Part shown: in pieces, positions 57,799 to 64,000 of the stretch | How positions within the stretch are numbered: position 1 is the stretch's first letter | How the letters are laid out: every line of letters begins with the position of its first letter | Assembly (NCBI RefSeq): GCF_900113765.1 | Contig: NZ_FOQO01000008.1 | Span: 124,001-188,000, forward strand | Origin: Parapedobacter indicus | Lineage (GTDB): Bacteria > Bacteroidota > Bacteroidia > Sphingobacteriales > Sphingobacteriaceae | Length of the DNA stretch: 64,000 nt | Reading direction: 5' to 3' | The notes under the pieces: model-generated | The model's database searches: none | What the model saw: the letters and a program-made list of their open reading frames with translations, nothing else | What the model was told of the DNA's origin: nothing | Translations under genes and position numbers: made by a program

Positions 57799-58656
57799 TT
57801 ATGTGCGTAAGCTTTTCAGATAGGCAATGCTTTGTGGTACCTGTTCGTCTACGCGATCGCTTTCGTCCTCTATATAGTAATGAGCTACCCCGGCCGACTT
57901 GGCTGCTTTCAAAATAGCAGGGATGTCAATTTGACCGGTACCCAATGCCACGTCATTTTCCTTGTTAGTGCCTCCGGAAAGGTTTCCCTCTATCCCTTTC
58001 TTCAAGTCTTTCAAGTGCAGTGCCTTGTATCGGGGACCATACTTTTCCAATAGTTCCACCGGATCAAAACCCGGGAAAAATGCCCATAGGATATCCAATT
58101 CAAAACTCACATAATCGGGATCGGTATTATTTACGATGTAGTCGTACAACGTACCGTCTCCGTACGGATGAAACTCGAATCCGTGGTTGTGGTAAATAAA
58201 CATCAACCCGTACTTATCCTTGAGTGCCTTACCCACCCTATTGAAATCGGCTACGGCTTTCTGTGCCTCTTCCAATGTGAACGAGCCACGCTCATGCGGA
58301 ATGCTCGCCACGCGCACATATTTTGCACCCAATGCGTTGGCATTCTCGGCCACTTCAGAAGTTTTATTGACTAGATCGTCGTAACTCACACCAAATGATG
58401 AACACGACATTTCCCTATCGTCAAGGAGTTTCCGTAGACTTTGGGCACTCTGCCCAAAGAGGTTTGAAAATTCCATATCGACGACACCCAGTTGCCGGAT
58501 CTTATCCAATGTTGATGGTACATCGTTTGCGAATTCATTCCTATATGTGTAGGAAACCATTCCAATCTCATTGGGAGAAAGTATTGTCTGGCTGTCACAC
58601 GCGAGGATAACGAATACCATAGCAACTTTTAAAAAAAAAAGATATTTTGATGACAT
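57799..58656 (-). CDS. TIM-barrel sugar isomerase/lyase-like protein (xylose isomerase-like), exported
   Basis: A 285-residue protein with an N-terminal signal that has a lipobox-like 'VILACDSQ' (Cys20), so it is probably a lipoprotein. The rest is a xylose-isomerase-like TIM barrel with metal-binding residues in 'LMFIYHNHGFEFHPYG', 'YVSFELDILWAFFPGF', 'RYKALHLKDLKKG' and 'VAHYYIEDESDRVDEQ'. Cytoplasmic relatives isomerise or epimerise sugars, and exported Bacteroidota relatives include 3-keto-glycoside lyases or hydratases. It is next to a Tat-type Gfo/Idh/MocA oxidoreductase and downstream of a SusCD pair, so it probably processes an oxidised sugar. The precise reaction is inferred. Confidence 0.83.
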   Translation of the reverse strand: MSSKYLFFLKVAMVFVILACDSQTILSPNEIGMVSYTYRNEFANDVPSTLDKIRQLGVVDMEFSNLFGQSAQSLRKLLDDREMSCSSFGVSYDDLVNKTSEVAENANALGAKYVRVASIPHERGSFTLEEAQKAVADFNRVGKALKDKYGLMFIYHNHGFEFHPYGDGTLYDYIVNNTDPDYVSFELDILWAFFPGFDPVELLEKYGPRYKALHLKDLKKGIEGNLSGGTNKENDVALGTGQIDIPAILKAAKSAGVAHYYIEDESDRVDEQVPQSIAYLKSLRT

Positions 58657-58693
58657 AGTCTTAACTGATTAAGGGTTTTTCATTGTCGATTAA

Positions 58694-60043
58694 TTAAACT
58701 TTTGGCTCCCAGCCTTTTTCATATTCGCGGCTCCACAGTTGTTGTGCTTCCTTATCACCAATGATATGGCCGTTAGCCGGATCCAACTGGATATCGCGTT
58801 TCAGTCGCCACGCAATGTTCCCGATTTGCATCGCCATCGTGCTCTTATGACCAAGCTCCACATCGCAATTAGGCCTACGCCTGTTTCGCATGGCGTCCAG
58901 AAAATCTGCCACATGAAGGCTGTCCAGACCAAGGCTGGGGCTAGCAGTATTTCGGCCCTGCATTTCTTCCTCTTTCTGCTGGGGTTTTACTTCCTTGACC
59001 AACTTGCCGTCACTGTCATAAACGGTATACATGTCGCCACCGGTATCCAGGCTTCCTTTTTCGCCATAGAATATAATGCCACGGTCCCTGCTTTCGATCT
59101 GCCGTCCGTTTGAACTCCTGTTTTCCCACATTAGGGATATGCCGCCCGGATAGTCCATGGTGATGACTTGCGTATCGGGTGTTTCCCAGTCGTCTTTGTA
59201 CTGATAACGGCCGCCTACCGAGCTTACGCGTAAGGGAAAGTCGACGTCCAGCCCCCAGCGGGCTACATCCACTTCGTGGGTGCCGTTGTTTAGTGCCTCT
59301 CCAGTACCCCAATGCCAGAACCAGTGCCAGTCATAGTGGATCAACCCCTCTTTATAAACCATGCGCGGGGCGGGGCCCTGCCATAGTTCATAGTCAAGCC
59401 AGGAGGGTACGGCACCTGGTTTCAGAAAGGTTTGCTTGCGGTTATTGGTATACCATGTTTTTGCAAAATAAACGCGGCCGATGATGCCATTATGTAGGGC
59501 TTCAATGCCTTCGGTAAGGGTAGGTGCTGAACGGCGCTGTGCCCCCATCTGGACCACCCGATCGTATTTCCTTGCTGCGGCGACGGCCAGTTCGCCTTCC
59601 CGCGGGTTATGGCTTATGGGTTTTTCCACGTAGACATCTTTCCCGGCCTGACAGCCCATGATAGTAAGCGGTGCGTGCCAGTGGTCGGGCGTGGCAATAT
59701 ATATAGCGTCAATAGATTTGTCTTCCAGTAGTTTACGGCAGTCTTTTTCTGGGCGGGGAACATTGACCTGCCCGGCGTCCAAGACGCGTTTGATCGCCTT
59801 GGGGATGGCCCGCTCGTCCACATCACAGATGCAAGCCACCTCGGTATTCTTTTGTTTTGCAAAAGTGGAGGACATGCTGTTACCGCGGCCATTTACGCCA
59901 ATGGTGGCGACGCGGATCCTGTCATTCGCCCCCATGATATTGCTGTAGCTCTTTGCACTGAAAATCATCGGCCCACCAAAGGTGAGGCCTGCGGACGCAA
60001 TGGCTGCTTTCTTGATAAAGTCCCTTCTTTTTTCCATATTCAT
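58694..60043 (-). CDS. Gfo/Idh/MocA-family oxidoreductase with Tat-type signal
   Basis: About 449 residues from ATG 60043; an in-frame start at 60112 would run into the SusD gene. The N-terminus 'MNMEKRRDFIKKAAIASAGL' has the twin-arginine pattern of proteins exported folded with cofactor. The NAD(P)-binding motif is 'IRVATIGVNGRGNSMS', the signature Lys is in 'GKDVYVEKPISHNPREGELA', and the catalytic-domain His are in 'NNGTHEVDVARWGLDVD'. It would oxidise or reduce a sugar hydroxyl, often at C3. It follows SusD and precedes the TIM-barrel gene by 37 bp. Confidence 0.9.
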   Translation of the reverse strand: MNMEKRRDFIKKAAIASAGLTFGGPMIFSAKSYSNIMGANDRIRVATIGVNGRGNSMSSTFAKQKNTEVACICDVDERAIPKAIKRVLDAGQVNVPRPEKDCRKLLEDKSIDAIYIATPDHWHAPLTIMGCQAGKDVYVEKPISHNPREGELAVAAARKYDRVVQMGAQRRSAPTLTEGIEALHNGIIGRVYFAKTWYTNNRKQTFLKPGAVPSWLDYELWQGPAPRMVYKEGLIHYDWHWFWHWGTGEALNNGTHEVDVARWGLDVDFPLRVSSVGGRYQYKDDWETPDTQVITMDYPGGISLMWENRSSNGRQIESRDRGIIFYGEKGSLDTGGDMYTVYDSDGKLVKEVKPQQKEEEMQGRNTASPSLGLDSLHVADFLDAMRNRRRPNCDVELGHKSTMAMQIGNIAWRLKRDIQLDPANGHIIGDKEAQQLWSREYEKGWEPKV

Positions 60044-60077
60044 TGTTCGTTTTGCAGTTAATAATTTTTGATAAGAA

Positions 60078-61811
60078 TTAATACCCGGGGTTTTGCTCCA
60101 TTTTATGGTCAATATTTAAATCAATCTGGCTTTGCGGGATGGGGAACAATACATTATAGTCTTGGATATTGCAGGCCGGATAGATGGGATTATTGTTGTA
60201 TTTTCTGACCCTTTCGAGCAGTTTGCCCACCCGGCGCAGGGTAATATGCCGAAACTCCTCGCCATAAAGTTCCCTGGCCCGTTCATCCAACAGGTAATCG
60301 ATGTCTACCTCCGCAGCAGCAACAGGTTTGGCGTGTGCCCGCTCCCTAATGGCATTGATATCTGCTGCCGCAAGTTCTAAATTGCCCAGCCCGATGTAGG
60401 CTTCGGCCCGCAATAGGATCGTTTCGGCAAGTCGAATCACATATACATCTTTATGCGTCCAGCCGGCACCGGATTGTGCAGGATCGGTGAAATGCTGCAA
60501 TGGCGAAGCATGTTTCAAGAAGTAGGGATAGATGTATTGGCATGTGTCGCGCATCGCGTTACGTGAGCCCGGAGGGTAAAGGCCGAAATCGATTTTTTGT
60601 TTGTGATATTTTGACGCCGGATTATCAAAATAAAAATCGCGCTTGATATTGTGTTTCGCATTTCGGATATCATTGTTCCAATCGCTTCTCCAGATATCGT
60701 AAGCCGCATAGTTGGTCGGCTTAATCCATGATACGGGCCTCCCGAGCGTATCCGAATAACCTGTGTATTGGCCGTTTACCATTTCCCCTCTGAATGCAGG
60801 GAATCCGTCGGGGGTGTTTCCCATCCGGAAGTAGGCCGGCCCCCATCCCCGGTCGCCCGGGAATTTTCTCCCTCCGACGACAAGAGGCTCTAGCTGGATT
60901 ACCCAAATAGCTTCCCTGTTTTCCGCCAGATTTTGATTTCCGTAAGTGAATAGGTCCAAAAAGGGATCACCGGATCCGAAAACGTCCGGTGTAGATCCGA
61001 AGCGCCTAGTCATGAGGGCGTACCCTGCGCCATCAATCACTTTTGAGGCGGCATCGATAGCGTCTTCAAACTTGGATTGGTTCAGGTATATTTCGGCCAA
61101 GGTATGCCACGCAGCACCTTTAGTGATTCGGCCTGGGGCTTCCTCGCTTCCTCTGGCAGGTAGATGCTCGCCGGCGAAAGTGAGGTCGCGCTCCAACAAC
61201 TGGTATATTTCGGCCTTCGGGGTACGGATAAAATCTGTCCTGACCGTGTTGATGGCTTCTGTCACCAAAGGCACATCGCCATACAAAGGCACTAAAAGGC
61301 GATACATCCAGCATCGGAAGAAAAGGGCTTCGGCCAAGAATTGATTTTTTTGATCTTCACTGTTCCATATGGATAAATCCGATTTTTCGATGCCAGCGAT
61401 CAGCACATTTGCCTGCTGTATTATCTGATACGACGTTACCCAAAAATATGTGAATTGCGGATCCTGCGAAGTCATTTCCGATCGGTAATTGACCAGCTTC
61501 CTATTCCCTCCCGGATTTTCGCCGTGAAACGCCACGTCCGTGCCCAAGCTACCAATCAAAATGGCAAATGGGTCTTGTCGCGATGAACCCAGATAGATAT
61601 CGTCGGCGTAGTACCACGTTTCTCTGACGTTGTAATGTAGCCCGGTGATGCCCTGCCTGATCCCTTCCACGTTTTGATAGGCATTTTCCGGGGCCAGGAA
61701 ATCAAGCGGAACTTCCGTAAGTATGTCCTTACTGCATGAAGGGGATAATAATAACCCTAGCAGGGTAAGTGCGGGCCATTTCTTAGATAGATTATATATG
61801 GATTTTTTCAT
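60078..61811 (-). CDS. SusD/RagB-family lipoprotein
   Basis: A 577-residue protein, longer than the other SusD proteins here. It has lipobox Cys26 ('LLGLLLSPSCSKDILTEVPL'), 'LFFRCWMYRLLVPLYGDVPL', 'AWHTLAEIYLNQSKFEDAID', 'RLAETILLRAEAYIGLGNLE' and the end 'PIPQSQIDLNIDHKMEQNPG'. It pairs with the SusC gene 42 bp upstream. There is no sigma or FecR gene between it and the right edge. Confidence 0.95.
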   Translation of the reverse strand: MKKSIYNLSKKWPALTLLGLLLSPSCSKDILTEVPLDFLAPENAYQNVEGIRQGITGLHYNVRETWYYADDIYLGSSRQDPFAILIGSLGTDVAFHGENPGGNRKLVNYRSEMTSQDPQFTYFWVTSYQIIQQANVLIAGIEKSDLSIWNSEDQKNQFLAEALFFRCWMYRLLVPLYGDVPLVTEAINTVRTDFIRTPKAEIYQLLERDLTFAGEHLPARGSEEAPGRITKGAAWHTLAEIYLNQSKFEDAIDAASKVIDGAGYALMTRRFGSTPDVFGSGDPFLDLFTYGNQNLAENREAIWVIQLEPLVVGGRKFPGDRGWGPAYFRMGNTPDGFPAFRGEMVNGQYTGYSDTLGRPVSWIKPTNYAAYDIWRSDWNNDIRNAKHNIKRDFYFDNPASKYHKQKIDFGLYPPGSRNAMRDTCQYIYPYFLKHASPLQHFTDPAQSGAGWTHKDVYVIRLAETILLRAEAYIGLGNLELAAADINAIRERAHAKPVAAAEVDIDYLLDERARELYGEEFRHITLRRVGKLLERVRKYNNNPIYPACNIQDYNVLFPIPQSQIDLNIDHKMEQNPGY

Positions 61812-61853
61812 GACTTTTAGCTATTAACATGTATATCGTCTTTGCTTTAAACA

Positions 61854-64000
61854 TTAGAAGGTAAGCCTGAAACCTGCGGTCACGTTCCTGCTTAATGGGG
61901 TGTCGTCGTCGGCGGAGTTGCCCAGCCCGACTTCGGGATCCCAACCCGACCAGTTGGTCCAGGTATACAGGTTTTTGGCAGAGACGTATAACTGACACAA
62001 TTTCAGTTTCAATGATTTTAAGAAAGACGGGGTAAATCGGTAGGCGAACGTGATATCCTGTAGCCGGACAAAGCTCCTGCTTTCATAAATTCCGCTTTGC
62101 CGCACCGGTGTGTTATATATGCCTGTTGCATTGTCTACCCCATTTTCCGGTGTCCAATATGGGCGTACGGCCGTAGCATTGATGCGGAATACGTCGTCAG
62201 CATTCCATGCTACATTGACGGCCCTGGAATTGTCCATGAGGTAAAAGCCATTGCCCCCCTGTATGGAATTGAGTAGGAAAGAAAGATTGAAGTTGTTATA
62301 AGACAGGTTGTTGCCAATACTGAAACGATAATTTGGTGCTTCATAGCCAATAATGGTCCGATCTGAATTAGGGTCAATAACGCCATCCCCGTTTTGGTCG
62401 ACATACCTGAATTGACCGGGATACCAATTCATTAACGTCCGGCCATTGTAGAGATCATCTTCTGACCATACACCACCCGCCATTTCATAGTCGTAAATAG
62501 CGCTGATAGGTTCTCCCACAAACCACGAGTTTCCGAGATCCTGATCTGCTTCGCCCCCGTATAATTGTGTGATTTCGCTTCTGTTCAATGAAAAGACGAA
62601 ACTGCTTTCCCAACGCAGCTTACCCTGTAGGTTAATGGTCCTCATCTCCAATTCGCCGCCCCGGTTGCCGATGGCTCCGATATTGGCCCATATATTCGGG
62701 TAGCCGCTGGCTGGGGGAAGCGCACGCCTAACGAGCACATCCGTTGTCTTAGCATTGTAGATATCGACCGATCCGGTGATCCGCCGGTTCAGGAAGCCAA
62801 AATCAACACCTAAATTATAGGACCCAGTGGTCTCCCAGCCGAGGTCGGCGTTCCCCAATGAGGTTGGCAACACACCATTTGCCGTGGTGGCACCGTATAC
62901 ATAGGGCCTAGCATCCATTCGCGAAAAACTAGAGTACCGACCGATGCCCTGGTTGCCATTTTTTCCGTAAGAAAGCCTGACCTTTAAAAATACGTCCTTG
63001 ACATTGTCGAAGAATGGCTCTTCCGAAAGTACCCAGCCCAGCGATAGGGAAGGGAAGGTCGCAAATTTTTTGTTAGCGGCAAAACCGGAAAAGCCGTCTT
63101 TACGAACCGTACCGGTGACTAAATACCGGTCCTTGTAGCTGTACGAAACACGGCCCATGTACGACAAACTGTTTTCTTCCCATGCCGAGGATTCTACAAC
63201 GGGCAAGGTACCCATGCCAATGTTGTTGTATCCGAGAATCGGATTTTCAAATCCGGTATTGCTAATCGTCGAATTGTCTGCATACCGATTCTCACGACTA
63301 AACAACAAGGTGCCGTTAATCTGATGATTACCGAAGTCTCCGAGATAACTCACAATGTTATTCAAGATCCAGTTCCTCTCCTGAGATGGGTGTTTCCGGG
63401 CCTCCCCTTTGTTGGCCGACCCTTCGGGCGTATTGATCGGATAGAAGCTGTTATTGTTATTGGCGGAGTAGGTGTTGGAGTAATTGAGCTCATTCGTGAG
63501 GCCCTTTATCCAAGGAACAGTGACCTTTGCTCTCCCCACCACAAAGAGATTGTTGCGGATATCGCTGTTGTCGACATTCAGGTTGTTGAACGGATAGGGC
63601 ATATACGTTTCCCCTGTTAGGAACATATCATAATCAGGGGCTCCAATCTTATTATTCGCCAAAGGGCTTGCACGCCTGGCATTGTTAAAACTGGCTTCCA
63701 CCCCTGAATAGTCTCGATAGGAGTAAGATGAATTTAACCCGAAGGTCAGCCAGTCTGTCACCTTACTTTCAAAATTGGTACGTAGGGTGAACCGCTTGAA
63801 CGAGTCATTGGAAAGTATTCCTTGCTCGTCGGTATACGAAGCTGACACGAAGTAATTATTGCGCTCGGTTTGCTGCGACAGGCTGAGGTCATAGTTTTGG
63901 ATGGGTGCTCTGCGCGTAACCTCATCTACCCAATCGATGGATTTGCCCGCCAGGTAGTTATCGCGTTCTTCCTGCGTTCTTAACCGAGCGGCAACCAGTT
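61854..64000 (-). CDS. SusC/RagA-family TonB-dependent transporter (5' part beyond window)
   Basis: The frame is open to the right edge, giving about 715 visible C-terminal residues. The visible part is barrel: 'RRAPIQNYDLSLSQQ', 'WLTFGLNSSYSYRDYSG', 'LSYMGRVSYSYKDRYLVTGT', 'LSLGWVLSEEPFFDNVKDVF', 'LRLSYGKNGNQGIGRYSSFS', 'YLYTWTNWSGWDPEVG' style motifs, and the terminal 'NVTAGFRLTF'. The plug, TonB box and any STN domain are outside the window. It pairs with the 577-residue SusD downstream and belongs with the oxidoreductase and TIM-barrel genes. Confidence 0.95.
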   Translation of the reverse strand, partial: LVAARLRTQEERDNYLAGKSIDWVDEVTRRAPIQNYDLSLSQQTERNNYFVSASYTDEQGILSNDSFKRFTLRTNFESKVTDWLTFGLNSSYSYRDYSGVEASFNNARRASPLANNKIGAPDYDMFLTGETYMPYPFNNLNVDNSDIRNNLFVVGRAKVTVPWIKGLTNELNYSNTYSANNNNSFYPINTPEGSANKGEARKHPSQERNWILNNIVSYLGDFGNHQINGTLLFSRENRYADNSTISNTGFENPILGYNNIGMGTLPVVESSAWEENSLSYMGRVSYSYKDRYLVTGTVRKDGFSGFAANKKFATFPSLSLGWVLSEEPFFDNVKDVFLKVRLSYGKNGNQGIGRYSSFSRMDARPYVYGATTANGVLPTSLGNADLGWETTGSYNLGVDFGFLNRRITGSVDIYNAKTTDVLVRRALPPASGYPNIWANIGAIGNRGGELEMRTINLQGKLRWESSFVFSLNRSEITQLYGGEADQDLGNSWFVGEPISAIYDYEMAGGVWSEDDLYNGRTLMNWYPGQFRYVDQNGDGVIDPNSDRTIIGYEAPNYRFSIGNNLSYNNFNLSFLLNSIQGGNGFYLMDNSRAVNVAWNADDVFRINATAVRPYWTPENGVDNATGIYNTPVRQSGIYESRSFVRLQDITFAYRFTPSFLKSLKLKLCQLYVSAKNLYTWTNWSGWDPEVGLGNSADDDTPLSRNVTAGFRLTF

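Follow-up and report, generated by a model that had tools for sequence, protein, structure and literature searches.

A pathway type in which a glycoside is first oxidised and then cleaved is already in print (PMC9007349, PMC10628242). In the Agrobacterium version, a flavoenzyme oxidises C3, the bond is broken by AtOGE, a triose-phosphate isomerase (TIM) barrel eliminase of the Mn2+ type, and a protein of the Gfo/Idh/MocA family (Gfo) performs the final reduction (PMC10628242). The C-glycoside deglycosidases DgpA and DgpBC likewise combine C3 oxidation with subsequent elimination by a metal-dependent TIM barrel, the DgpBC type requiring a beta subunit (PMC8563793). For Bacteroides thetaiotaomicron, the DUF1080 protein BT2157 has been called a 3-ketotrehalose hydrolase, and LacABC together with DUF1080 have been proposed to act in the periplasm (PMC9007349). 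The titles of PDB entries 8tcd, 8tct and 8tdf name 3-keto-glycoside lyases or a glucoside-3-dehydrogenase. The paper behind these three entries reportedly appeared in Nature in 2024. Here we compare with these systems an operon at the right-hand end of a 64,000-nucleotide stretch of the Parapedobacter indicus genome (the window; RefSeq assembly GCF_900113765.1, contig NZ_FOQO01000008.1, positions 124,001 to 188,000), in which a SusC/SusD pair is followed by a Gfo protein and a TIM barrel. Since the pathway type has been published, the novelty of the locus is smaller than was implied by an earlier note on this DNA, which had proposed oxidative cleavage of an imported glycan or glycoside.

Sequence comparisons, structure models and genomic context lead us to assign a probability of about 0.82 to the reading that this operon is a glycan-uptake locus whose enzymes break glycosidic bonds by an oxidative route outside the cytoplasm. 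Judging from its family, the SusCD pair would supply the periplasm with an oligosaccharide or glycoside. The Gfo protein, taking up its nicotinamide cofactor as it folds, before export by the twin-arginine translocation (Tat) system, would oxidise the sugar at C3 to a 3-keto-glycoside, as its relation to the Alistipes enzyme AL3 suggests. The TIM barrel, probably a Mn2+ enzyme with H158 as base, would then take the C2 proton and expel the aglycone or the next sugar, leaving a 2-hydroxy-3-keto-glycal; this step is modelled on the relation to AtOGE and AL1 and on identical active-site residues. Water would be added without an enzyme or by a DUF1080 protein encoded elsewhere in the genome, which we take to be a hydratase, although PMC9007349 speaks of a 3-keto-glycoside hydrolase. 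The same Gfo protein would finally re-reduce the 3-keto-sugar, its cofactor staying bound throughout and being regenerated in place. Taken together, the four steps of oxidation, elimination, hydration and reduction formally amount to a net hydrolysis (PMC10628242), so that the bound cofactor could be restored at every turn. The genes concerned are the following, position x of L021, a stretch reaching beyond the window, corresponding to window position x + 56000:

57799..58656, minus strand: TIM barrel, PF01261 (AP_endonuc_2) by Pfam; predicted to be an exported 3-keto-O-glycoside beta-eliminase (1,2-lyase)
58694..60043, minus strand: Gfo/Idh/MocA protein, PF01408 and PF19051, Tat-exported; predicted glycoside 3-dehydrogenase (and 3-keto-sugar reductase); the start is the ATG before the Tat motif (60043), the longest frame beginning at 60112
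60078..61811, minus strand: SusD-family outer-membrane glycan-binding lipoprotein, PF07980 and PF14322
61854..64000, minus strand: SusC/RagA TonB-dependent transporter, of which the C-terminal 714 amino acids lie in the window; TIGR04056, 479 bits against a cut-off of 368.25
L021:5854-9231 (start at window-equivalent 65231), minus strand: the complete SusC reading frame, which carries the Plug domain
L021:9472-10590, minus strand: FecR, beyond the window and upstream of SusC
L021:10677-11276, minus strand: extracytoplasmic function (ECF) sigma factor, beyond the window and upstream of FecR

Read from upstream on the minus strand, the order is thus ECF sigma factor, FecR, SusC, SusD, Gfo, TIM barrel. 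Gaps of only 42, 34 and 37 bases separate the last four genes and therefore fit a single operon. As the earlier note had described, all four genes of the window lie on one strand, and no glycoside hydrolase is found among the six genes of the operon.

By fold, sequence and catalytic residues the TIM barrel groups with enzymes of 3-keto-glycoside beta-elimination, so that its prediction as an eliminase is supported in kind. Structure models of both enzymes had been suggested as a check, and that of the TIM barrel (pLDDT 95.4) has as its best listed fold match the Alistipes 3-keto-beta-glucopyranoside-1,2-lyase AL1 (8tcd; Z 28.6 over 237 residues, 1.9 Å, 28% identity), tied with 3obe (Z 28.5) and a further such lyase, 8tcr (28.4). 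The B. thetaiotaomicron 1,2-lyase BT1 (8tct, 27.5) and AtOGE (8bvk, 24.6) rank lower, families missing from the fold-match lists not being counted as absent. A sequence search of the PDB returned 8tct, 3obe, 8tcs, 8tcd and 8bvk at the top. AtOGE binds its metal through His132, Asp163, His189 and, weakly, Glu233, and uses His134 as catalytic base (PMC10628242). In a phmmer alignment with 8bvk, H156, D188, H214 and E263 of the TIM barrel fall on the four ligands and H158 on the base, and all five residues are identical in 46 of the 46 rows of an alignment (A2) spanning relatives down to 26% identity.

The first metal ligand also bears on the substrate. Enzymes acting on C-glycosides carry Glu at this position (E147 in AgCGD2; PMC8563793, PMC10628242), whereas the equivalent of AtOGE H132 is His156 here and His in 46/46 rows of A2; O-glycosides are therefore likelier substrates than C-glycosides, as far as these residues indicate. 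A C-glycoside deglycosidase was ruled out on the same His in place of Glu and on the operon containing no gene for a beta subunit, the operon being the only part of the genome searched for one.

The model of the Gfo protein (pLDDT 86.0) is matched best by the glucoside-3-dehydrogenase AL3 (8tdf, Z 40.6 over 369 residues; 8tdh, Z 40.5 over 368), and the next row of the list falls to Z 37.0. Given this nearly full-length fold match, we predict an AL3-like glucoside 3-dehydrogenase in the wider sense. K141 (of an EKP motif) and H256, presumably the catalytic Lys and His of the family, are each found in 42 of 42 rows of the Gfo alignment (A3). The Asp that closes the second strand (D74) would, as a rule, favour NAD over NADP. 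The top NCBIfam match is NF058561 (BT_2158 glycoside 3-dehydrogenase), at 151.2 bits against a cut-off of 750. Because two other genes of the same genome do exceed that cut-off, the protein is, by sequence, a divergent relative of BT_2158 and not the same protein. A sister branch (about 55% identity; L080-L083, L085, L088-L091) has NagA and NagB-like genes in its operons in 9 of 11 rows, suggesting a role in N-acetylglucosamine use; in L090, NagA lies above its NCBIfam cut-off and NagB below.

Both enzymes appear to leave the cytoplasm. The twin-arginine signal that had been noticed on the Gfo protein was recovered with TIGR01409 (19.6 bits, NCBIfam cut-off 16.7), and TatC is encoded in the Parapedobacter genome. 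The RR pair is kept in all 42 rows of A3, and the 30 relatives of at least 40% identity comprise 24 with the strict Tat pattern, three with an RRDML variant and three that are cut short. On the TIM barrel, the lipoprotein-type signal is matched by a hydrophobic N-terminus that ends in VILAC, lipobox-like by a crude pattern. Among its relatives, an equally crude test finds a hydrophobic N-terminus in 76/76 and the lipobox-like pattern in 8/76, the latter missing some relatives (e.g. L101); these sequences thus do not seem to have lipid anchoring in common.

How a nicotinamide cofactor might be recycled outside the cytoplasm has a precedent in the glucose-fructose and aldose-aldose oxidoreductases (GFOR and AAOR), which are also Tat-exported Gfo proteins; GFOR keeps its cofactor bound in a redox-neutral cycle, and the same is assumed for AAOR (PMC4628093). 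By analogy, recycling in Parapedobacter would be explained most simply by a nicotinamide that stays bound while each cycle balances oxidation with reduction. The two differ from the protein studied here in turning free sugars into acid and alcohol (PMC4628093) and are less similar to it in fold than AL3 (1h6d, Z 35.2; 5a02, 33.9).

The genomic context of the TIM barrel was scanned with six queries against genome contigs, and the best 80 of at least 541 confirmed relatives, all from Bacteroidota judging by their record titles, were retained; 79 loci were analysed, L107 being left out on account of a frame overlapping its TIM gene. These loci are rich in Dyadobacter and Mucilaginibacter and are not independent. 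Genes on one strand and no more than 300 bases apart were taken as an operon, and DUF1080 was counted with a search built from nine single-domain references. A Gfo gene at least 40% identical to that of the window is present in 26 of the 79 operons, DUF1080 in 18 and a GMC oxidoreductase in seven, 35 operons having at least one of the three. In a sample of 60 genomes of relatives, Gfo genes of at least 45% identity number only one to three per genome where present, so that a chance origin of the 26 co-occurrences is not credible, although the loci are not independent. The arrangement FecR-SusC-SusD-Gfo-TIM is seen again in P. pyrenivorans, whose TIM gene is 85% identical to that of the window, in three Pedobacter and in one Spirosoma (L101, L136, L137, L170, L151). 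One of the Pedobacter operons continues with a PF07995 glucose/sorbosone dehydrogenase (L136:8823-10025).

Mapped onto the TIM tree, Gfo as a partner requires 15 changes and DUF1080 requires 13, which indicates repeated gain or loss of both; the trees come from quick searches, support is poor for 33 of the 94 inner branches in the TIM tree, and the 99-row tree includes two duplicates (L053 = L101, L054 = L152). In nine loci, one reading frame encodes both a DUF1080 and a TIM domain, each exceeding its Pfam cut-off in 9/9. The fusions have two origins on the tree and opposite orders, DUF1080-TIM in seven (L208-L214, picked for their long frames and thus giving no rate) and TIM-DUF1080 in two (L114, L133). 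Gfo, TIM, a double DUF1080, GMC, ThuA and GH20 genes follow one another in L215. Three of the seven GMC-bearing operons are without Gfo, and in these electrons may leave to the respiratory chain. At L055:8015-10762 (genome G021), TIM is paired with a GMC oxidoreductase and there is no Gfo; the GMC enzyme is a possible alternative partner for C3 oxidation.

Looking to the right for DUF1080 or other lyase genes, as had been proposed, turned out to mean looking upstream, transcription running from right to left. In a search of the whole genome (6.16 Mb), no DUF1080 was found in the operon or on either side of it; the reading frames of 35 kb of sequence to the right were inspected in addition. The genome has 29 matches above the Pfam cut-off in 25 reading frames, and those on the same contig start no nearer than position 278954, roughly 88 kb away from the ECF gene. 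The hydration step would consequently need a DUF1080 gene from elsewhere or run uncatalysed.

The closest Gfo paralogue of the same genome (74% identity) lies in an operon of the order SusC-SusD-DUF1080-Gfo-DUF1080, adjoined by sulfatase-like genes (L073:1-3524; BLAST with a window sulfatase). Six loci at 70-75% identity to the Gfo protein, chosen without reference to TIM, were taken from six genomes of the relatives' sample (the organism's own, on C19, and G004, G022, G003, G005 and G034), and DUF1080 adjoins Gfo in five of them.

Several of these results weigh against oxidative cleavage by the operon. The operon is without a hydratase, and TIM occurs in 0/6 of the operons found from the Gfo side. 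None of Gfo, DUF1080 and GMC is present in 44/79 TIM-clade operons, so that the TIM barrel may rely on partners encoded elsewhere or serve a different function. The Gfo protein stays, at 151 bits, far under the curated cut-off of 750 for BT_2158; relatives on another branch of its family belong to operons for N-acetylglucosamine; and 3obe, tied for the best fold match of the TIM barrel, carries no assigned reaction. In B. thetaiotaomicron, moreover, deletion of BT2157 and BT2158 left growth on raffinose-family sugars unimpaired, although transposon work that found defects for BT2156-BT2160 is cited beside this result (PMC11501099). The periplasmic cleavage proposed in the earlier note is partly supported, by fold, sequence, lyase residues and genomic context; a neighbouring DUF1080 gene is lacking.

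A more specific version of the scheme, which strikes us as rather unlikely, is a self-contained, TonB-coupled periplasmic machine for sulfated glycans: a single exported nicotinoprotein would carry out both the oxidation and the re-reduction, the eliminase would cut and sulfatases would cooperate. It is prompted by a frame of 737 amino acids in Mariniphaga anaerophila (L141:6570-8783) that unites a sulfatase with the TIM domain, and by two sulfatase operons adjoining the locus. These are two ECF/FecR/SusCD operons to the left of the TIM gene, at window positions 37421-57607, each with a sulfatase pair at its end; the nearer, which begins leftwards from 57607, is separate from the operon described here. 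A GH20 gene lies at L022:2345-4702, and together with the flanking sulfatase operons it gives a hint of sulfated or amino-sugar glycans. On the other side, the next operon upstream (L021:11486-14984, window-equivalent 67486-70984) holds ECF- and FecR-like genes, SusC and SusD and ends in two PF12831 FAD-dependent oxidoreductases; no glycoside hydrolase is among its genes, so that here too a SusCD pair is accompanied by no enzymes other than redox enzymes.

We regard as unlikely a role of the TIM barrel as 3-keto-sugar epimerase or hydratase, with cleavage of the bond left to a DUF1080 protein in trans. The 3-keto-glucoside 4-epimerase YcjR does share its fold, as far down as Z 21.1 and hence well below the lyases; for a second 'sugar phosphate isomerase' of A. 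tumefaciens there is preliminary evidence of hydration (PMC10628242), and the hydrolase name given to BT2157 (PMC9007349) points the same way. The catalytic residues, in contrast, are those of AtOGE, in which H134A is devoid of activity and H189A retains less than 0.1% (PMC10628242).

It seems improbable that the Gfo protein alone is an NAD+-dependent glycosidase of the GH109 or sulfoquinovosidase-like kind, performing all steps in one active site with the TIM barrel as accessory isomerase or epimerase. NAD-dependent glycosidases share its fold (8qc5, Z 36.4; 8zn9, 35.0) and the GH109 entries 6t2b and 2ixa match its sequence, though over the N-terminal part, whereas AL3 scores about 4 Z units higher with an alignment reaching the C-terminus, and 8qc5 is level with DgpA and others. 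A full eliminase active site, kept in the TIM barrel, would be superfluous for a one-enzyme route, and relatives of the Gfo protein adjoin TIM or DUF1080 genes. An inositol pathway with the Gfo protein as inositol dehydrogenase IolG and the TIM barrel as inosose dehydratase IolE is very improbable and was rejected on NCBIfam scores, since IolE, although the only match of the TIM barrel, reaches 51.8 of 290 bits and IolG, the second match of the Gfo protein, 73.5 of 355, while IolE structures attain Z 23.9 and 23.2 against 28.6 for the lyases and the export signals on both proteins and the SusCD pair upstream speak against it.

Returning to oxidative cleavage outside the cytoplasm, the Bacteroides and Alistipes enzymes (BT1, AL1, AL3, BT2157) include the same two enzyme types and provide the best named fold matches of both proteins, but identity over the structural alignments is only 27-28%, and in Parapedobacter the pair closes an ECF/FecR/SusCD operon without DUF1080. 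Compared with the Agrobacterium pathway, whose eliminase has identical ligand and base residues, the Gfo protein is here the only oxidoreductase of the operon and carries a Tat signal. The locus is thus a variant of a known chemistry, which differs in its coupling to ECF/FecR/SusCD, in an operon without DUF1080, in the distant Gfo protein and in the fusions of its relatives. No report of a SusCD operon ending in Gfo and TIM, or of a DUF1080/TIM fusion, was found in the open-access literature, covered mostly as titles and abstract openings.

The TIM clade is no curiosity of a single strain: of 399 genomes sampled from this family, 79, spread over 9 of 25 genera and including the organism's own, encode a member at E 1e-60 or better. 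The nine fusions and the recurring SusCD-Gfo-TIM operons offer ready-made material for experiments on how an NAD-type enzyme can operate away from the cytoplasmic cofactor pool. Annotation of polysaccharide utilisation loci commonly seeks glycoside hydrolases and polysaccharide lyases, and operons such as this one would be read as being without a cutting enzyme.

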